The notes under the pieces are model-generated. The model searched no databases, was not told the origin of the DNA, and saw only the letters and a program-made list of their open reading frames with translations. Shown one piece after another: positions 19,948 to 29,741 of a stretch of 64,000 nucleotides of DNA. The stretch is from Ornithobacterium rhinotracheale (GTDB taxonomy: Bacteria > Bacteroidota > Bacteroidia > Flavobacteriales > Weeksellaceae): the NCBI RefSeq assembly GCF_022832975.1, contig NZ_CP094846.1, positions 1,089,501 through 1,153,500 on the forward strand. The letters are read 5' to 3'. Each line of letters opens with the position of its first letter. Within the stretch, counting starts at the first letter, position 1. A program made the translations under genes and the position numbers.

Positions 19948-22500
19948 TTATTGATAGGTGTCTCGCACTTGTCTGATTTTGATTGTTGGCGGATGATTTT
20001 CGTTTAATTCAGGCGAAGAAATTTCGATGGTTTTGGATTCGTTTGGCAATAAATCAAAGAAATTATTGCTAAACTGAACGCCCAAAATCGGAATCTCTAC
20101 AAATACATTTTTAGCCAATTTATTGGTTTTAAGTTTTAAATAATATTTTCCGTTTTTAAATTTAAGTTTTGTATGGATTTGATTTTTAGGTAAATTCAAC
20201 TCTTTTACGGGCAAGAAATAGAAATTATCTTGGGCTAAAGTTTTGCCTTTTTGGTCTTTTAAATTTAATACTAAAAAAGCATTTTTCATGGTTTTTTCTT
20301 CGGCAATATCCTTGAGGTTTAAGCTCGCAACTTTTTGAGCTTGGTTGGCTAAAACATCGGTCGGGAAATTCCATTTTTTGAGGATTTTTCCCGAGAAATC
20401 CATGAGTTTTACTTCCAAATTCGCTTTTGGAATACTTTTTAATTCATCAGAAAATATGTAAAAATCATATTTTTGAGTATCTGAGTTTTGGTAGGCATCT
20501 ACGGCGATCGGTGCAAAGGCTTCGCGTGCCTTGTAGTGCAGTGCTTTCCAGTTGTTGTAATAATCCACGCTAGACCACGATACCACCGGCCAGCTATCGT
20601 TGAGTTGCCAATACAGCGAGCCCATGCAATAAGGGCGATTTCTACGATGGGCGAGCATGCCCTTTTTCATGCCTTCGCCTTGGAGCACAAGCCCTAAGTA
20701 CACAAAATCTGAAAAGTTGTTGGGCATTCGGTAGTAGTGTTCCATGTACTCTTTTATGGCATCGTTGCCTGTACTGCTTTTTTGGTGCGCTTGCATTACT
20801 TTAGAATCCAGTGCAAAATCTTTTTCATCGGCAAAAGTACGAAGCGTTTTTTCTTCTGGAAAAGCTTGGAACCCAAATTCACTCATAAATCTTGGTACAT
20901 TTTTGTCTAAAATTTCAAATGGCTGACGACCGTACCAAACGCCCCAGTAGTGCGAATCTCCGTAAGCCCAAGTGGCAGGTCGCCCCCAGTTGGCAATGAG
21001 TGGCGAGCCGTGGATGTAAGGCGTTTCGGGCGCATATTTTTTGACTAAATCGGGGAGAAGCGTTTTGAAAATTTGGTCGTAGGAGTGAAAGAAATTTTGG
21101 TATGCATCGGCAGGGACACGCTTTTCAAATCCCCAATATTTAATGGATTCTTCCACCTCGTTGTTGCCACACCAGAGAGCTACGCAAGCATAGTTGCGCA
21201 GGCGTTTGATATTGCTGATGGCTTCTTCTTCCACATTGTCGAGAAATGCCGAATTGCTTGGGTAAGGCGTGCATGCAAACATAAAATCTTGCCAAATGAG
21301 AATGCCATAGCGATCGGCAAGTTCATAGAAATAATCGTTTTCGTAAATGCCGCCACCCCAAACTCTTAACATGTTCATATTGGCGGCGACTGTATTTTTA
21401 AACAATCGTTCGTAGTAAGCCGAGTCTTGCTGAGCTGTAAGCGTTTCGCCGGGAATGTAATTGGCTCCTTTGGCAAAAATCGGCTTGCCATTTATTTTAA
21501 AATAAAAACTTTCGCCCTTGGGGTCTTTTTCTCGTACGAGTTCAATTTTTCTAATGCCAATTTTGTGATTTTTAGAGCTAATAGTTTTATCGTTGTTTTT
21601 AATTTCGATAGAAAAATCATATAAATTTTGCTTTCCCCAGCCATTGGGTTGCCAGAGTTTGGGCTGGTTTAAATTTATGGGGAGTGAAAGAGAATTAGAG
21701 CCTTTTGCGATGTCAAAACTGCGTTGTATGCTACTTATTGTTTTTCCATTTTCTTGAATATTTAAAACGATATTGGCTTTAAAATCTTTGTCGGAGTTAA
21801 TTTGTAAATGATTTTGTATCACGGCTTTTTCCTCCGAAACTTCCTTTTGTTCCACAAAGTAATCAGTGATGTAGGCTTCGTTTAAAAATTGAAGATAAAC
21901 GGGACGCCAAATGCCCATTTGTACAATGCGGATTCCCCAATCCCACCCAAAATGATAGGGGGCTTTGCGGGAATAAACACTTACTTTTTCTGTGCGATGA
22001 TCGTTATCGGCAGGATATTCAAAGCCCGCTGCTAGTCGTTTAGTTTTGTTGTATTTGATAGGTGAATAAAATTTAATTTTGAGCGTATTTTTTCCTGCTC
22101 TTAGATACTTTTTGACAGAGATATCGTGTGGCACAAACATATTTTGGGCGTGCAGAATTTTATGTTCGTTCAGGGTAACATCGGCAAAGGTGTCAAGTCC
22201 CGTGAGTTGCAAAAGAATATTTGGGAATTTCAAGTCATCAGCCTGAATTTCAAAATCTTTTATAAAAATCCAATCTTTATCTTCCACCCATTGTATCTTT
22301 TCTTCGTTGGTGCCTTTGTAAGGTGGTGGTAAAATTTTATGCTGAATTAGAGAATGTTGCACCGAGGTAGGAATGTCGGTTTTATACCATTTTTGGGAAT
22401 TAATTTCAGAAAATTGCCAATCTTGATTGAGTGTAATGCGTTTCTGAGAAAAGCTTAGACTCATGATTAAAACATTTAGTAAAAAGAAAAATCTACGCAT
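19948..22500 (-). CDS. Glycoside hydrolase family 2 beta-mannosidase
   Basis: An 850-residue exported enzyme with signal peptide MRRFFFLLNVLIMSLSFSQ. The jellyroll and Ig-like domains are followed by a TIM barrel with the acid/base Glu in CGNNEVEES (about residue 445) and the nucleophile Glu in MSEFGFQAFP (about 540). The KAPYHFGWDWG segment and LRVWGGGIYE separate beta-mannosidases from GH2 beta-galactosidases. It would release terminal beta-1,4-mannose, for example from the core of host N-glycans or from mannans. It is divergent from the SusC gene at 22719 and fits the glycan-uptake and sialidase locus beside it. Confidence 0.94.
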   Translation of the reverse strand: MRRFFFLLNVLIMSLSFSQKRITLNQDWQFSEINSQKWYKTDIPTSVQHSLIQHKILPPPYKGTNEEKIQWVEDKDWIFIKDFEIQADDLKFPNILLQLTGLDTFADVTLNEHKILHAQNMFVPHDISVKKYLRAGKNTLKIKFYSPIKYNKTKRLAAGFEYPADNDHRTEKVSVYSRKAPYHFGWDWGIRIVQMGIWRPVYLQFLNEAYITDYFVEQKEVSEEKAVIQNHLQINSDKDFKANIVLNIQENGKTISSIQRSFDIAKGSNSLSLPINLNQPKLWQPNGWGKQNLYDFSIEIKNNDKTISSKNHKIGIRKIELVREKDPKGESFYFKINGKPIFAKGANYIPGETLTAQQDSAYYERLFKNTVAANMNMLRVWGGGIYENDYFYELADRYGILIWQDFMFACTPYPSNSAFLDNVEEEAISNIKRLRNYACVALWCGNNEVEESIKYWGFEKRVPADAYQNFFHSYDQIFKTLLPDLVKKYAPETPYIHGSPLIANWGRPATWAYGDSHYWGVWYGRQPFEILDKNVPRFMSEFGFQAFPEEKTLRTFADEKDFALDSKVMQAHQKSSTGNDAIKEYMEHYYRMPNNFSDFVYLGLVLQGEGMKKGMLAHRRNRPYCMGSLYWQLNDSWPVVSWSSVDYYNNWKALHYKAREAFAPIAVDAYQNSDTQKYDFYIFSDELKSIPKANLEVKLMDFSGKILKKWNFPTDVLANQAQKVASLNLKDIAEEKTMKNAFLVLNLKDQKGKTLAQDNFYFLPVKELNLPKNQIHTKLKFKNGKYYLKLKTNKLAKNVFVEIPILGVQFSNNFFDLLPNESKTIEISSPELNENHPPTIKIRQVRDTYQ

Positions 22501-22675
22501 AGGGGTATTTTTTATAAATGTATGAAAATCTATTGTGATTTCAATAATTTTATAATTTAGTGAGTTTTTTATTTTTGATGTCGTTTTTTGAATTTTTGTA
22601 AGATTGATTATTCAGGAGTAGTTTGTTGTTATTGTTAAACTATAGTTTTTTTTTTTATTATTATGTATTAATATA

Positions 22676-22683
22676 TAAATTTG
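22676..22683 (+). promoter_or_regulatory. Putative -7 element for the susC-susD operon
   Basis: TAAATTTG followed by C, 35 bp before the susC start, within a 218-bp divergent intergenic region that also carries an 11-12-base T tract at about 22646-22658. No clear -33 TTTG is seen at the usual spacing. No ECF sigma/anti-sigma pair or hybrid sensor gene is adjacent. Confidence 0.4.
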
Positions 22684-22718
22684 CGGTAGATAATTATTTT
22701 TATGAAAGCTATTGAATT

Positions 22719-25700
22719 ATGCGAAAAATTTTATTTTATTTATTTGTAGCATTGGTGTCAAGTGCTCAAATTTTCACAAAAGCACAGTCTGTTACAATTC
22801 AAGGAAATGTAGTGGATGAAAATAAGGAGCCAGTAGTGGGAGCTTTGATTCAGTCTTTGAAAGAAAAATCTTTAGAGGTTGAAACAGATGGAGAAGGGAA
22901 TTTTGAAATAACAGTTCCTAAGAATTCATTTATTGAAGTGTCTTTCCCTAATCTTGAGATTTTAAAATTAAAGGCTAAGCCTAAGATGAATATTGTTTTG
23001 CATCTTCAATCTCAAGAGTTGAAAGAGGTTGTTGTTACTGGTTACCAGAAGGTTAGGAAAGAGAGGATGACTGGGAGTGTTTCTACGCTTCAATCATCAG
23101 ACCTTAAAAAGATGAATATCAAGTCGATAGATAATGCCTTGGCTGGAAATTTATCGGGGGTATCTGTAACTACTTCGGGAAGGCCAGGTGCAGATGCTCA
23201 AATTCATGTAAGGGGTGTAAACTCTTTGATTGGGAATACTGATCCAATTTGGATCGTGGATGGAATGCCACTCCAAGGGGAGGTTCCTAATTTAAATTCG
23301 TTGGGAGGGAGTTTAGACCCATCTTTATTTCAATCAGGAATAGGGAATCTGTCGCCCGATGATATAGAAAGCATTACTGTATTGAAGGATGCGGCTGCAA
23401 GTGCAATTTATGGAGCTCGTGCTGCAAATGGGGTAATCGTAATTAAGACCAAGTCTGGGAAAGCTGGCAAGGCTAAGTATAATGTATCTGCAACTTTTGG
23501 TATAAATGAAAGGCCTAAAAGTAATTTAAATATGATGAATTCATTAGAAAAAATTCAATTTGAAAAAGAGGTTTATAACGATTTAGAGGTTTCAACATAT
23601 GGTAGAGTAACCTCTCTTTTGAGGGAGCTTTCCAGAGGGCTGATTTCTCAGCAAGCATTTGATGCAGAGTTGGATAGATTGGGAAGTATTAATACAGATT
23701 GGTTTAAAGAATTATATAGAAACAGTTATTCAATGCAGTTAAATGCAAATATGTCTGGTGGCACGGAAAAGACTCAATTTTATAATTCAGTGAACTATTT
23801 GAAAGAGAATGGTATAGAGTATAATAATGATTATAAAAGATTAAGATTGCGCTCAAGGATTGATCATAAAATTAATGATAAAATATCAATGCAATTAGAT
23901 TTGTCTGGTACCTATAGAAATAATGTTAGTACAGCTTCAGCTATAAATCCATTGACTTATGCCATCTATGCAAATCCGTATGAATTGCCAAATGAATATG
24001 ATTTAAGTTGGTCTATGACTCAAAGTAGAATAAGAAGTGGGTTGAGATGGTCTACACTAAATGTTAAAAATGAAATAGAAAGAAATCAATCAAATAGTAG
24101 ATATCTAGAGGGTGCCGTTAGAGCAAAGTTAGAGTGGAAACCAATAAAAGGACTGTCTATAGCTTCGCAAGGCATAGCAAGTGCAAGAAGTAATAATACT
24201 AATAGGATAGAGGGAGAAGGAACTTATACAAACTTTTTGAATAACTGGTACGATTTTGCGGTTTCGGAGATTCTGCCAGAGCAAGTAAAGGGCTCTCTAA
24301 ACGAAGGGACTTCTTATGGAAATAGTTATACGCTTAGAAACACCATTGAATATGGATTGAATATTAATCAAAAACATTATTTAGACTTATTTGCCGGACA
24401 AGAAATTTCACACTCTATTACCAATACATCGTTTAATTATTCTCCAATTTTTGATCAATTACATAGAATAATTGGGTTCCCAGCTTTGCCAGAGGGAATA
24501 GATGTGAGAACAATCCCATTTAGTAGCCTAGGGAATACAGGTAGATTTGAATCTAAATTAGTTTCTTTTTTCTTTAACGGAACCTATTCTTATATGGATA
24601 AGTATGTGTTAAGTGGCTCTGTGAGATACGATGGATCAGATGTTATTGGAAATGATAATCAATTTACACCACTATGGAATGTCTCAGGGAAATGGAATGT
24701 TTCTAAAGAGAATTTTTTTGAATCAGAGATTATAAATGATTTGTCTTTGAGAGCAGGTTTTGGCTATACTGGAAGTATAGATAAAAACGCATTTCCGTTT
24801 GTTTTGATGAAATTTGAAAATAGATATGATTATGATAATATAATTATTCCAACCTCGTTTGTGTATGCAAATCCCAATGTTAAATGGCAAACGAAAAAAG
24901 ATTTCAACATAGGGGTAGAATCATCTTGGTTAAATAGAAGATTAATTTTTGGACTGAATTACTATAATAATTTTGTATACGATTTATTGGATAGAAAAGC
25001 CCTGGCACTTTCTTCTGGGCGAGAGGACGTAGTTCAAAATGTTGCTAATTTGAGAAACAAAGGTTGGGAGTTTGATCTAGAGGCTAAAGTTATAAAAACA
25101 AGAGATTTATCGTGGATATTAAGAGGAAACCTTTCTCTAAACAAAAACATAGTTACAGAAACATTTTATGAAAATCTAGCATCTTTACCTATTATAAGCT
25201 CAGGTAGTGGTAATCGTAATTTTGTGAAAGATTATCCAGTTCAAGGATGGTTCGGTTATCGATTTGCTGGAGTAGATCCAGAGAATGGGCATACATTAGT
25301 TTATGATGGTAATGGAGATGTTTTTGATATGGATAGACTTAGTAATGTAACTTTAGGATTAAAGGCACCTACGCCTCAGTTTTTGGGAGATTTTGTTCCT
25401 CCAGTTGTAGGCGGATTTTCTACAAGTCTTAATTGGAGAGAGTGGTCTCTTAATATGAATTTTGAATTTAAAATGGGACATTACATTCGTTCGTTTGAAG
25501 GCTTTAGTTCAATTTCATCAAGAAATCGACATATTAGTGATAAATCAAGATGGAGAGCTCCAGGAGACAAAGCTTTGAAGCCAGAAATTTCATATAACAA
25601 TGTGGCTTATAGAGAATACATGTACGATTCTATGCTAGAAAAAGGAGATTATTTAAGAAATACATTTACATCATTTGGTTACAATTTGCCACAAAATTGG

Positions 25701-25856
25701 CTTAAAAATATGCAGATAGACAATGCTAGAATAAGCATCGGAGCCAACAATCTATTTACTATTACTAAATATAAAGGAATAGACCCAGCCCTCATGGGAA
25801 GTTTAGGGTACCCAAATACAAGAAGCTACAATTTAATGATTAATATAGGTTTTTAA
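22719..25856 (+). CDS. SusC/RagA-family TonB-linked outer-membrane transporter
   Basis: A 1045-residue glycan or peptide importer. The signal peptide (ending at FTKAQS) precedes a CarboxypepD_reg-like domain (VTIQGNVVDENKEPVVGALI), a TonB-box-like ELKEVVVTGYQ, and a plug with NALAGNLSGVSVTTSGRPGA, IHVRGVNSL, WIVDGMPLQGEV and VLKDAAASAIYGARAANGVI, which are the SusC hallmarks. The C-terminal barrel ends YPNTRSYNLMINIGF. A SusD gene follows 10 bp later and a third lipoprotein gene after that; sialidase and GH13 genes follow on the same strand. Confidence 0.96.
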   Translation: MRKILFYLFVALVSSAQIFTKAQSVTIQGNVVDENKEPVVGALIQSLKEKSLEVETDGEGNFEITVPKNSFIEVSFPNLEILKLKAKPKMNIVLHLQSQELKEVVVTGYQKVRKERMTGSVSTLQSSDLKKMNIKSIDNALAGNLSGVSVTTSGRPGADAQIHVRGVNSLIGNTDPIWIVDGMPLQGEVPNLNSLGGSLDPSLFQSGIGNLSPDDIESITVLKDAAASAIYGARAANGVIVIKTKSGKAGKAKYNVSATFGINERPKSNLNMMNSLEKIQFEKEVYNDLEVSTYGRVTSLLRELSRGLISQQAFDAELDRLGSINTDWFKELYRNSYSMQLNANMSGGTEKTQFYNSVNYLKENGIEYNNDYKRLRLRSRIDHKINDKISMQLDLSGTYRNNVSTASAINPLTYAIYANPYELPNEYDLSWSMTQSRIRSGLRWSTLNVKNEIERNQSNSRYLEGAVRAKLEWKPIKGLSIASQGIASARSNNTNRIEGEGTYTNFLNNWYDFAVSEILPEQVKGSLNEGTSYGNSYTLRNTIEYGLNINQKHYLDLFAGQEISHSITNTSFNYSPIFDQLHRIIGFPALPEGIDVRTIPFSSLGNTGRFESKLVSFFFNGTYSYMDKYVLSGSVRYDGSDVIGNDNQFTPLWNVSGKWNVSKENFFESEIINDLSLRAGFGYTGSIDKNAFPFVLMKFENRYDYDNIIIPTSFVYANPNVKWQTKKDFNIGVESSWLNRRLIFGLNYYNNFVYDLLDRKALALSSGREDVVQNVANLRNKGWEFDLEAKVIKTRDLSWILRGNLSLNKNIVTETFYENLASLPIISSGSGNRNFVKDYPVQGWFGYRFAGVDPENGHTLVYDGNGDVFDMDRLSNVTLGLKAPTPQFLGDFVPPVVGGFSTSLNWREWSLNMNFEFKMGHYIRSFEGFSSISSRNRHISDKSRWRAPGDKALKPEISYNNVAYREYMYDSMLEKGDYLRNTFTSFGYNLPQNWLKNMQIDNARISIGANNLFTITKYKGIDPALMGSLGYPNTRSYNLMINIGF

Positions 25857-25866
25857 TACTGTGAAA

Positions 25867-27306
25867 ATGAAAAAAATTATAATAGCAATATTGGCTTTAT
25901 TTACAATCTATTCTTGCCAAGATTACTTAAATGTAAAGCCAGAAAATGTAATGACAGTTAGTTCTTACCAAGATGTCAAGTCTCTTTTAGGAGGACACCT
26001 AAAGTCTTTTCAAGATGGCGATACGAGGCAAGCCTTGAGTAATGTCCCAATTTTCTTTAGCGACAATAAGGATTATTTAATTACGCACTTTTATAGCGAT
26101 GATTATGATCTTGAAAAATATTTGGATAATTACATGGGGAGAAACAATAGAGGGGATTTTCAAAAATCTCAAGATTGGAAACACCCAGATATTAATGAAC
26201 AAATATGGAAAACGGGATTTAAATCAATTGGATTCTACAATATGGTTTTGTTCGAGTTGGATAAAGTAAAGGCTTCTGAAGATGAAAGAAATATTATAAA
26301 AGGTGAAGTTAAGACATTAAGAGCTTGGAACTTCTTTAGATTACTCCAATTTTTTTCGCCTTACCACAATAATAGTCTTGGTCTACCATTGAATACAAAC
26401 CCAGACAAAGTTGGAGATTACGATAAATCAAGAAAATCACAGGTGGAAAATTACGACTTTATTATAAATGAACTAGAAGAAGTTTTAAATTATAAAACAA
26501 AACCTAAACAGGGATATAATATATTTTATGATAAGAAAATTGTCCACGCTCTTTTAGCCCAAGTGTATTTGTATAAAGGAGACTCGGGGGCAAAGGCAGC
26601 AACAGACTATGAGAAAGCAATTGCCCATGCTCAAAAAGCGATGGAAGGGCGTCTTAGCTTAGAAGAAATTTCAAGAAATCCGACGGAAAATGAAAGCTAT
26701 GGTATTAATAAAGAAAAGACATATTCTTTATTATCGTTTATGTACAACGATACAAATAGAATTTTTAATCTTGTAGGGATGCCAGCTTGGGGTATGTTTC
26801 AATATGCCTCAGATGAATTATTTAGCTTATTTGATGAAAACGATAAAAGAACTGATTTATATTTCAATAAGGATAAAGGTATTTTGAAGTTTGAGTCAGA
26901 GTTTCAATACTCGTATTGTAAGTGGGATTTCTTTACTGCGAGCGAAATGCAATTGATTATAGCTGAAAGTTATGCCCGAAAAGGTGATGAAGAGAATGCT
27001 AAAAGAGCATTAAAAGTCTTTACAGATTCAAGGTATAATAAATACCTTTCCAAAGAAAATTTATCAACATTGGATAAAATTTTGATTGAACGCAGAAAAG
27101 AATTTTGCTTTGATTACTGCATGAGATGGATTGATTTGACTCGATTGCAAAAAGGCTTTAAACATAAATCTGTAGGCAAGAAAAAAGACCAAAAAGAATT
27201 TTTTGAATTATCAAATGGGGATTTCAGATTTTGTATGCCAATTCCCAAATCAGGTGAGTTGCAAAATAATAAAATAGAACAAAACCCTGGCTGGGGTAAC
27301 TTTTAA
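25867..27306 (+). CDS. SusD/RagB-family surface lipoprotein
   Basis: A 479-residue surface-exposed substrate-binding lipoprotein that caps the SusC barrel. I start it at the ATG at 25867, not the GTG six bases upstream, because MKKIIIAILALFTIYSC is a normal lipoprotein signal with the lipidated Cys at residue 17. SusD features include the DYLNVKPENVMTVSSYQD opening, a TPR-like helical centre (GEVKTLRAWNFFRLLQFF, VHALLAQVYLYKGD), ERRKEFCFDYCMRWIDLTRL and the closing QNPGW. It is part of the susC operon. Confidence 0.94.
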   Translation: MKKIIIAILALFTIYSCQDYLNVKPENVMTVSSYQDVKSLLGGHLKSFQDGDTRQALSNVPIFFSDNKDYLITHFYSDDYDLEKYLDNYMGRNNRGDFQKSQDWKHPDINEQIWKTGFKSIGFYNMVLFELDKVKASEDERNIIKGEVKTLRAWNFFRLLQFFSPYHNNSLGLPLNTNPDKVGDYDKSRKSQVENYDFIINELEEVLNYKTKPKQGYNIFYDKKIVHALLAQVYLYKGDSGAKAATDYEKAIAHAQKAMEGRLSLEEISRNPTENESYGINKEKTYSLLSFMYNDTNRIFNLVGMPAWGMFQYASDELFSLFDENDKRTDLYFNKDKGILKFESEFQYSYCKWDFFTASEMQLIIAESYARKGDEENAKRALKVFTDSRYNKYLSKENLSTLDKILIERRKEFCFDYCMRWIDLTRLQKGFKHKSVGKKKDQKEFFELSNGDFRFCMPIPKSGELQNNKIEQNPGWGNF

Positions 27307-27318
27307 AATATAGTAAAA

Positions 27319-28521
27319 ATGAAATTTTTAAAATTTTTTGTACTGAGTATAATAGCATTGCTTATGCTCAATTCTTGTAACAAAGATGAAACTGACTATT
27401 CGATTGATTTTATTGGATTCGATAAAATAGTAAAAATCGAACTATCTCCTAATAGCCCTCAATTAATTGCAGATGGCGTGGCTGAGCTAAAATTTAAGGT
27501 AAAATGTTATTATTTGATTAAAGATACAGTACTTGTACCAATGCTAGCCGATAGAGTTCCCCTAGATAAAATTGAAATAAAATCATCTGACGGGCAAAAA
27601 ATAAAGTTGTCTGAGGCTTACACAACAAAAGCCAAAGCGGACTCCATAGCCTTTACCTGTACAGCGGGAGATAAAACATCAAATGAGGTTAAAGTAGCAT
27701 TGACAGAACCTGTAGTGAACAATGATGAAGAGATAGTTGTGCCAATTATTTTTCATGCACTATATACTGAGGAAACAAAAAATAATACCAAAAATTTAAA
27801 TAAAGATTTTCTTCAAGACATTGTGAATAAAACCAACAAAGTCTTTGCCAATGAAGTAAATAAATCTCCTAGCAGTTTCAACTCTGGAATTAAATTTAAG
27901 GTGCATAAATTAGAATTTGTAAAAGTAGATGCAGAAATAATGAGCAGTCAATATGATTTGTACAACTACATTTCAGATAATTTAATCGAAGAGCCTAAAA
28001 AATATTTAAATGTTTGGATACTAAATACTCAGATGTGGAAGTTAGGAGAAGATGCATGTGTTCCAGCATTCACATTCGGAGATCCATCAAAAATTAAAGG
28101 GCTTGATTTGGAGGTTGTTAAAAGTATAGATGAAATAAAAAAAATAAAACCAGAATATGTTGGCTTTGCTCTAACATATGGAGATATTTACCAGATGAAA
28201 GAGGGATATGGCAGTAAATCCTTCCCCTATAGCATAGGAAAGTATTACGGACTTTTACCCACGGGGCATTATAATGAGGAAAATCCTCCAATGGAAAACA
28301 ATGACTTAGATTATTGCCCAGACACCTACTCTTATGTTAGAAAAGAGATAACTTTGCAGAAAAAAACATTTCCTATAAATGGAAATAAAAATAAAATATA
28401 TTATTACGATTCGTTTAATATAATGGATGAAATATCATCCTCGAGAACGATAAGCAAAGACCAAATCTTTAGAATAAAACAGGTGATGAAAGACTGTCCA
28501 TTTAGGCAAATGAAATCGTAA
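27319..28521 (+). CDS. Lipoprotein resembling an M43 metalloprotease with its zinc site lost
   Basis: A 400-residue lipoprotein (lipobox LMLNSC). After an Ig-like N-terminal half (about 30-135), the sequence from VVPIIFHALY follows the pappalysin-like (M43) zinc-protease plan: a helical segment VNKTNKVFANEV, KYLNVWIL, a helix where HExGHxxGL should be, a DYCPDTYSY Cys-loop and a methionine-turn-like FNIMDE. At the active helix the sequence reads YSIGKYYGLLPTGHY instead of HEIGHYxGLxHTF: both zinc His and the catalytic Glu are replaced. I infer a catalytically dead family member acting as a binding protein. It starts 12 bp after susD, so it is very probably a subunit or ligand-binding partner of this SusCD system. 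The family assignment rests on motif order, not on a search. Confidence 0.72.
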   Translation: MKFLKFFVLSIIALLMLNSCNKDETDYSIDFIGFDKIVKIELSPNSPQLIADGVAELKFKVKCYYLIKDTVLVPMLADRVPLDKIEIKSSDGQKIKLSEAYTTKAKADSIAFTCTAGDKTSNEVKVALTEPVVNNDEEIVVPIIFHALYTEETKNNTKNLNKDFLQDIVNKTNKVFANEVNKSPSSFNSGIKFKVHKLEFVKVDAEIMSSQYDLYNYISDNLIEEPKKYLNVWILNTQMWKLGEDACVPAFTFGDPSKIKGLDLEVVKSIDEIKKIKPEYVGFALTYGDIYQMKEGYGSKSFPYSIGKYYGLLPTGHYNEENPPMENNDLDYCPDTYSYVRKEITLQKKTFPINGNKNKIYYYDSFNIMDEISSSRTISKDQIFRIKQVMKDCPFRQMKS

Positions 28522-28529
28522 ATAAAACT

Positions 28530-28562
28530 AAATTCCGTAAATTATTTTACGGAATTTTTTAT
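28530..28562 (+). terminator. Terminator of the susC-susD operon
   Basis: Perfect 12-bp stem AAATTCCGTAAA / TTTACGGAATTT around TTAT, followed by T. It separates the transporter operon from the sialidase gene. Confidence 0.85.
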
Positions 28563-28634
28563 TTAAATATGAAATTAAAACACGATTGATAATTATCATG
28601 ATTTAAAAAACTAATTTTTCAATTTAAAATTTCG

Positions 28635-28642
28635 TATCTTAG
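28635..28642 (+). promoter_or_regulatory. Putative -7 element of the sialidase promoter
   Basis: TATCTTAG, one base off TAnnTTTG, 28 bp before the nanH start and downstream of the operon terminator, so the sialidase probably has its own promoter. Confidence 0.4.
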
Positions 28643-28670
28643 TCCACCAAAATTTTAAACAAAATAATAC

Positions 28671-29741
28671 ATGAAAAAATTTATATTGCTTCTAGCCAGC
28701 ACGATGACCTTTGCACAAAATGCCAAACCAATGCCTACCATTTTATTTACCAATAAAGATAAAAAATTAAATGGAGGCTGCTACAGAATCCCTTCGCTCA
28801 TCACAGCACAAGACGGAACTTTGATTGCCGTAGCCGATCAGCGTTTGAATGGTTGTGGCGATTTGAAATATAACGACGACATCAACATCGTAGCACGCCG
28901 CAGTACCGATGGCGGCAAAACTTGGAGTGATATAGAAAGCATTGTAGATTTCCCGAAAGGAGAATCAGCATCAGATGCATCTATGGTTTTGAATAAAAAA
29001 ACAGGAGATATTATCTTGTTTTACAATTATATGGATTTGAAAAATGAAAAAGACATTTTTAAACAACATTATGTAATCAGCCACGACAATGGCAAAACTT
29101 GGAGCAAGTCCTACGATATTACAAGACAAATCGCTCCAGAAAATTCATACAAAGACTTTAAATTCATCACTTCGGGGCGTGCTACCCAAGCACCCGACGG
29201 AACGATTTACCAAACTTTGGTAGACCTTCAAAAGAAAGGAGTTTTTATATTTTATTCTAAAAACAATGGCGTTTCATGGAATTTATTAACAGGTTCGGTA
29301 CAGCCCGCAGATGAAACCAATATTGTCGCCTTGCCGAACGGAAATATTTTGCTAAATGCGCGTGTGGCAGGATTAGGAAGTCGAAAAATCTATGAATTTG
29401 CGCCAAATGGCAAATTGTTGAGAGACGAGGTGGTAAAAGCCTTGCCAGACCCTGCTTGTAACGGAGCCATTTTGGACTATCAAGTAGGAAAACAAAATTT
29501 ACTGTTTTTCTCAAATGCAAACGACAGCAAGAAACGTAAAAATATGACCATAAAATACAGCACAGACAATGGCAATACATGGAGCCAAGGAAAAGTGCTA
29601 AATCCAGGATTTTCAGCATATTCCTCTTTAGCTCAGTTGGATAATAATGATTTAGGAATTTTATACGAGATTAATGACTACGGCGACATCGCTTTTAGCT
29701 ATTTGCCGATAGATTGGGTTTTGTCTCAAGGTGTAAAATAA
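28671..29741 (+). CDS. nanH: Exo-alpha-sialidase (neuraminidase), GH33
   Basis: A 356-residue six-bladed propeller that cleaves terminal sialic acid from glycoproteins or glycolipids. The arginine-triad entry motif YRIPSL is followed by DQRLNGCGDL, and at least three good Asp boxes are present (RSTDGGKTW, SHDNGKTW, YSTDNGNTW) plus a weaker YSKNNGVSW. A short signal peptide ends near TFAQ. There is no separate carbohydrate-binding domain, so it is shorter than many Bacteroides sialidases. No sialic-acid catabolic genes (nanA, nanE) are in the window. Position after SusCD and opposite a beta-mannosidase supports host-glycan foraging. Confidence 0.95.
   Translation: MKKFILLLASTMTFAQNAKPMPTILFTNKDKKLNGGCYRIPSLITAQDGTLIAVADQRLNGCGDLKYNDDINIVARRSTDGGKTWSDIESIVDFPKGESASDASMVLNKKTGDIILFYNYMDLKNEKDIFKQHYVISHDNGKTWSKSYDITRQIAPENSYKDFKFITSGRATQAPDGTIYQTLVDLQKKGVFIFYSKNNGVSWNLLTGSVQPADETNIVALPNGNILLNARVAGLGSRKIYEFAPNGKLLRDEVVKALPDPACNGAILDYQVGKQNLLFFSNANDSKKRKNMTIKYSTDNGNTWSQGKVLNPGFSAYSSLAQLDNNDLGILYEINDYGDIAFSYLPIDWVLSQGVK

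Follow-up and report, generated by a model that had tools for sequence, protein, structure and literature searches.

In the analysed DNA of Ornithobacterium rhinotracheale (64,000 nucleotides, called the window here) a susC/susD pair is followed on the same strand by a third gene, which encodes the protein P0001, and these three genes lie between a GH2 and a sialidase gene. The features of the locus, including those within the third gene, are:

19948-22500, opposite direction (-): GH2 beta-mannosidase-like gene
22719-25856, +: susC, leading gene of the operon, open reading frame (ORF) for a SusC/RagA-type TonB-dependent outer-membrane transporter
25861-27306, +: susD, ORF with GTG start, for a SusD/RagB-type surface lipoprotein
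27319-28521, +: P0001 gene, ORF of 400 aa with ATG start, for a pseudo-pappalysin lipoprotein, dead by sequence
27376-27393, +: lipobox cysteine C20 and CNKDET, fitting the surface-export consensus C-X-K-(D/E)2-X
27379-27723, +: residues 21-135, beta-rich N-terminal region (low-confidence strands in the model)
27724-28518, +: residues 136-400, metzincin-like domain (VIA-align Z 17.2 to ulilysin)
28228-28260, +: YSIGKYYGLLP, residues 304-314, in the place of HExxHxxGxxH (alignment A2)
28417-28428, +: NIMD Met-turn, residues 367-370, kept (Met in 55/56 relatives)
28530-28557, seen on both strands: terminator-like hairpin with a 12-pair stem and a T-rich tail
28671-29741, +: sialidase gene beyond the hairpin (Pfam BNR_2, E 6e-21; solved sialidases matched)

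SusC matches the NCBIfam model TIGR04056 above its cut-off (E 3.1e-196) as well as solved homologues of the RagA and SusC kind, and SusD is matched by the Pfam families SusD-like_3 (E 7.5e-14) and SusD_RagB (E 3.9e-8). The nearest solved relatives of the two proteins do not decide between a peptide and a glycan substrate. The two genes are spaced by 4 bp, and the P0001 frame begins 12 bp past the susD stop (27306). The ORF coordinates thus confirm the initial annotation, made from the DNA alone, which had named the gene the third member of the operon, and we infer that the three genes are transcribed together. The terminator announced behind it corresponds to the hairpin at 28530-28557. A scan of the window found five such sites against 4.9 expected in shuffled sequences, so the support for this hairpin comes from its stem, the longest of the five, and from its place.

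The same arrangement is found in two other genomes of the genus (G298 and G299), in which the P0001 gene also lies directly 3' of susD and the GH2, susC, susD, third and sialidase genes (19948-29741) are co-located. The GH2 gene aligns to its copy in G299 (L056) with a single one-base gap, which may reflect a frameshift or a misread base in that copy. Searches of a further genus genome, G300, with P0001, SusD and the GH2 protein came up empty under the limits applied, the GH2 search being uninformative when taken alone. Therefore, the stretch from the GH2 to the sialidase gene may be variable within the genus. Outside the genus the nearest SusD proteins have 29 to 31% identity and come from nine genomes of one other genus (246 searched, E 1e-20). 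The same-strand ORFs behind these nine matches are all of at most 128 aa (considering up to three nearest ORFs above 60 aa per locus), so these loci do not reveal where the third gene came from.

The surface-export signal of Capnocytophaga canimorsus was reportedly studied by Lauber et al. In P0001 a hydrophobic signal precedes C20, and the mature protein would begin with CNKDET, in agreement with the lipoprotein assignment of the initial annotation. Because CNKDET fits C-X-K-(D/E)2-X, described as the optimal export signal of C. canimorsus (PMC5080379), surface exposure of P0001 is a well-founded prediction.

An erased zinc site in a predicted pappalysin fold

Active relatives of P0001 were collected from genome contigs with search patterns that did not contain the zinc motif, and 80 loci (the best 80 of 329) were kept by their similarity to active members. 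All 80 carry the full motif. The genome searches gave 66 ORF entries, a few of which repeat one gene (L023/L054, L072/L073). The motif is complete in 64 of them; in L066 a Tyr replaces the third His, and L071 is an N-terminal fragment. Selection by start, length and redundancy reduced the 80 loci to 61 proteins, and 56 of these entered alignment A2 after L096, L104, L109, L121 and L151 had been left out for doubtful starts or origin.

In mirolysin, the zinc is bound by three histidines, with Glu225 as general base and Tyr286 as tyrosine switch, and the extended zinc motif reads HEXXHXXGXXH (PMC6949598). All sequence elements named in the initial annotation are found in P0001, namely VVPIIFHALY, KYLNVWIL, the Cys loop DYCPDT, FNIMDE and the helix YSIGKYYGLL. 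This helix does align to the zinc site: the residues aligned with Y304, S305, K308 and P314 are H, E, H and H, respectively, in 56/56 relatives, so that all three histidine ligands and the catalytic glutamate are absent from P0001, where H-E-H-H has become Y-S-K-P. The column of the tyrosine switch, Tyr in 56/56 relatives, is a gap in P0001 (NIMD-E). The initial annotation had claimed the absence of both histidines of the helix and of the glutamate; with the third histidine (H to P) and the tyrosine switch also gone, the loss is larger than that. Altogether, 28 columns are invariant in the relatives, half of which P0001 keeps (14), while the 14 lost ones include nine positions beyond the four catalytic residues and the Met-turn tyrosine. 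Among the kept elements are the DYCxDT loop, G307, G311, Q382, R385 and NIMD. Judged from the residues lost, P0001 is catalytically dead, a pseudoenzyme.

It could be argued that P0001 is still an enzyme, using another metal site or another chemistry in the same cleft, as a histidine, a tyrosine and an aspartate remain near the helix (H317, Y318, D331) and the gene is under strong purifying selection (see below). However, three histidines, the catalytic glutamate and the tyrosine switch have been lost together, and HExxH does not occur anywhere in P0001. We consider this explanation very improbable.

Residues 8-394 of P0001 match the NCBIfam model TIGR03952 (metzin_BF0631), described there as a zinc-dependent metalloproteinase lipoprotein. 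The E-value is 8.9e-15, but the score of 54.5 bits is far below the cut-off of 208.1; the G298 allele, at 47.9 bits, is below it as well. TIGR03952 proteins are sparse, with scores over the cut-off in 1/395 genomes of the order, 2/395 of the class and 11/151 of one family. The Pfam scan at E 0.01 assigned P0001 to no family, and in the same scan the 56 alignment relatives match M43 (PF05572). Also in a PF05572 search of four genus genomes at E 1 the place of P0001 is not among the matches. In G300 there is an over-cut-off Peptidase_M43 match at C8:47157-47477 (L167), within an open frame of 598 aa. In a tree of 54 rows the stem of the dead pair has 5.25 changes per column, with warnings for long branches and composition. 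Because P0001 is below the TIGR03952 cut-off and without a Pfam M43 match, and the tree cannot place the dead pair, we have filed it in neither TIGR03952 nor M43. Thus, the profile search suggested with the initial annotation returned a full-length TIGR03952 match, but at a score below the cut-off and without the M43 match in Pfam, and membership in M43 failed this test.

The fold was predicted with AlphaFold2 on the 57-row alignment of P0001 and the 56 active metzincins (mean pLDDT 70, pTM 0.64). By block, the mean pLDDT is 85 to 95 between residues 141 and 210 and 88 at 301-310; among the weaker parts are 241-250 (51), 351-360 (47) and much of the N-terminal region (about 50). With residues 135-400 of the model, VIA-align places ulilysin on top (2cki, Z 17.2, 3.2 A over 224 residues), followed by mirolysin (16.4), PAPP-A (14.7) and PAPP-A2 (13.9), the other metzincins scoring 11.3 and below. 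Foldseek on the first model also has promirolysin and ulilysin on top, with moderate TM-scores, which for ulilysin are 0.40 by query length and 0.58 by target length. A model computed without an alignment was dropped for fold claims; at a pLDDT of 32 it is uninformative, and its secondary structure agrees in part with that of the alignment-based model. The fold claim is therefore founded on sequence homology together with the alignment-based model, and P0001 is predicted to have a pappalysin-type metzincin fold, as the initial annotation had proposed from the order of the motifs. A chance resemblance to metzincins is unlikely given the TIGR03952 E-value and the ulilysin Z-score, and a fold of another kind, which would have contradicted the annotation, is not what the model predicts.

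At the place of P0001 residues 21-135, 47 of the 57 alignment rows have a BACON domain, and in P0001 neither BACON nor any other Pfam family matches there. A glycan might be bound by this N-terminal part or by some new surface of P0001, as in the surface glycan-binding proteins (SGBPs), with the dead protease domain as a mere scaffold. Such a role would suit the BACON domains of the relatives and the beta-mannosidase-like GH2 and sialidase genes that flank the operon, and SGBPs are encoded together with SusCD in known polysaccharide utilization loci (PMC7618045 and PMC11992087). However, a carbohydrate-binding domain is not recognisable in P0001 (no Pfam family matched), and the N-terminal region is modelled at low confidence, so that we regard this explanation as rather doubtful.

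Conservation of the dead gene and apparent exchange of its neighbours

Of 320 family genomes searched with P0001 at E 0.001, 20 match, but only the three within the genus do so over essentially the full length: the genome of the window itself, G298 (95% identity) and G299 (99%). The remaining 17 matches are weak and cover parts of residues 131-246. Closer relatives outside the genus were not found in 395 genomes of the class (E 1e-4; own genome only), nor did plasmids at E 0.01, or genome contigs queried with P0001 alone, return any match. P0001 thus looks like a genus-restricted pseudo-pappalysin. The initial annotation had proposed to check whether homologues in related strains keep HExxH; the G298 and G299 proteins do not, and carry the dead helix instead.

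The window and G298 alleles of the P0001 gene are separated by 74 changes, 55 of them synonymous and 19 nonsynonymous (dS 0.278, dN 0.020, dN/dS 0.072). The nonsynonymous share of 26% (19/74) compares with a neutral expectation of 80% (p = 6e-24). The neighbouring genes measured in the same pair have dN/dS values of 0.035 to 0.152, with zero nonsynonymous changes in susD. The window and G299 genes differ by one synonymous and three nonsynonymous changes, too few for judging their ratio of 0.74, and the selection result therefore rests on the one pair of window and G298 alleles. Both alleles carry YSIGKYYGLL, so that by parsimony the site was dead before they split. By these substitution counts P0001 is a maintained pseudoenzyme under purifying selection. 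Because its site is dead and selection preserves the gene, P0001 probably now serves as a binding subunit and no longer as a cutting enzyme.

The genome of the window also encodes one paralogue over the TIGR03952 cut-off, the sole one found there (L054:10967-12288, at about 1976966-1978287 of G000:C1), in which the motif HELGHYLGLRH is intact. The likely start with its signal peptide is in a different frame from the rest of the protein, and the following gene shows up as two ORFs, perhaps the parts of a single split gene. In the relatives it is represented by a C-terminal match of 26 residues in G299 and by none in G298 and G300 (E 1e-5). Decay thus seems to affect the active form, while the dead P0001 is conserved. 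Such a paralogue indicates that genes of this kind do decay in this genome, and one might suspect that P0001, too, is a pseudogene in decay or stems from a sequencing error. However, three genus genomes carry it with an uninterrupted frame and only 19 of 74 changes are nonsynonymous, which leaves next to no probability for this explanation. In the same locus, at L054:14579-19479 (-), an apparent further SusC/SusD pair was picked out by eye, followed by a gene resembling M28-type peptidases, suggesting a peptide-linked use of SusCD in this organism.

SusC and SusD (22719-27306) are near-identical across three genus members, with dS values of 0.004 to 0.026 between pairs. For the window and G298 dS is 0.011 in SusC and 0.015 in SusD, compared with 0.14 in the GH2, 0.11 in the sialidase, 0.43 in the amylase and 0.52 in the birA gene of the flanks (the names amylase, birA and rsfS were assigned by eye). 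Because the pair is near-identical inside more diverged flanks, it has apparently been exchanged between species recently. P0001 is common to the window and G299 (dS 0.004) and divergent in G298, while for amylase, birA and rsfS the closer pair is that of G298 and G299. Such discordance favours tracts of exchange with an end within or adjacent to the third gene. A tight co-evolution of P0001 with SusCD is not supported, given that the pair is near-identical between species while P0001 has two alleles.

Two alleles (dS about 0.27) beside a near-invariant SusCD would fit a surface antigen or a difference in ligands, and P0001 might accordingly be imagined as a decoy or adhesin for a host or competitor protein such as a protease inhibitor or a metzincin substrate, its adjacency to susD being incidental to transport. 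ADAM22 is catalytically inactive, and the ADAM22-LGI1 complex, in which a metzincin-fold domain takes part in binding, is among the fold matches. However, the difference between the alleles is mostly synonymous (dN/dS 0.07), without a sign of diversifying selection, and the position in the operon favours transport. A decoy or adhesin of this type is therefore unlikely.

Families with an intact HExxH had been said in the initial annotation to stand beside SusCD transporters. Models of SusC and SusD, built from the window proteins and their matches and thus prone to miss divergent SusC/SusD, were matched in 9 of the 80 metzincin loci, and a nearby pair on the same strand is present in three (L077, L090, L108). 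The statement holds to the extent of these three loci, but in none of them is the metzincin the third gene: it is fourth in L090 and L108 and precedes SusC in L077. Active TIGR03952 proteins are thus not typically the third susCD gene in the loci sampled, and the window shows a particular arrangement. A recurrent context distinct from SusCD is seen in L097, L103 and L146, where active TIGR03952 genes come in a row after two others, one for a protein of some 520-540 aa and one of some 400 aa; the 520-540-aa proteins start alike, and the only one scanned, that of L097, matches DUF6029.

A proposed capture role and its known counterparts

SusCD importers are modular, many of their accessory lipoproteins are uncharacterised, and the third-gene position behind susCD is often taken by surface substrate-binding lipoproteins (SGBPs). 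We favour, as somewhat probable, that P0001 is a non-cutting capture lipoprotein encoded in one operon with SusCD, its zinc site having been erased. Tethered by its lipid at the cell surface, it would sit on or beside SusCD in the outer membrane, possibly in complex with it, capture the substrate, for which the old protease cleft is the first candidate site, and pass it uncut to SusD and SusC. Concerning the ligand, the evidence points in two directions. A metzincin cleft in the model suggests a peptide or glycopeptide, and the glycosidase genes nearby point no less to a glycan or glycoprotein than to a peptide. In addition, the nine extra invariant positions lost mean that the cleft may have been remodelled beyond peptide binding. 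The more specific idea, that a metzincin was turned into a dedicated subunit for (glyco)peptide capture in which the old cleft docks the substrate, a pseudoprotease counterpart of the SGBPs, is accordingly put forward as a tentative one.

Among the known systems, the SGBPs of the levan and dextran utilisomes resemble P0001 as surface lipoproteins accessory to SusCD, and in the levan SGBP two domains, the N-terminal and the central one, have Ig-like folds. They differ in that no protease-derived domain is described in the part of the source available, which also names one uncharacterised SusCD accessory lipoprotein (PMC7618045). In Bacteroides thetaiotaomicron, BT4244-BT4247 encode an active metallopeptidase and an SGBP together with SusCD, and BT4244-M60L with BT4245 and BT4246-47 comes close to the present locus in having a metallopeptidase surface lipoprotein with SusCD beside glycosidases. 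However, BT4244 belongs to another family, being an active M60-like glycopeptidase, and carries a CBM32 domain, and the SGBP is a separate protein, BT4245 (PMC11992087). A dead peptidase as a SusCD subunit did not appear in the open-licence PMC literature surveyed by title and start of abstract, which covers the field in part.

The closest counterparts by sequence are the TIGR03952 proteins, with which P0001 shares the full-length profile match, the lipoprotein nature and the motif order VPIIFH, YLNVWI, DYCxDT and NIMD. In contrast to them it scores 54.5 instead of 208.1 bits, has neither HExxH nor a recognisable BACON domain, was found in one genus only and is encoded by the third susCD gene. 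Pappalysins constitute M43B. With ulilysin, mirolysin and PAPP-A, P0001 has the predicted fold and the Met-turn NxMD in common, but the zinc ligands, the general base and the tyrosine switch have been lost and the Pfam M43 match is absent. If the capture role is true, a disarmed protease has been kept behind susD, and peptidase folds could be recruited as binding subunits in addition to the carbohydrate-binding folds. The dead and the active forms of one fold would then offer a natural contrast for probing what such subunits bind.
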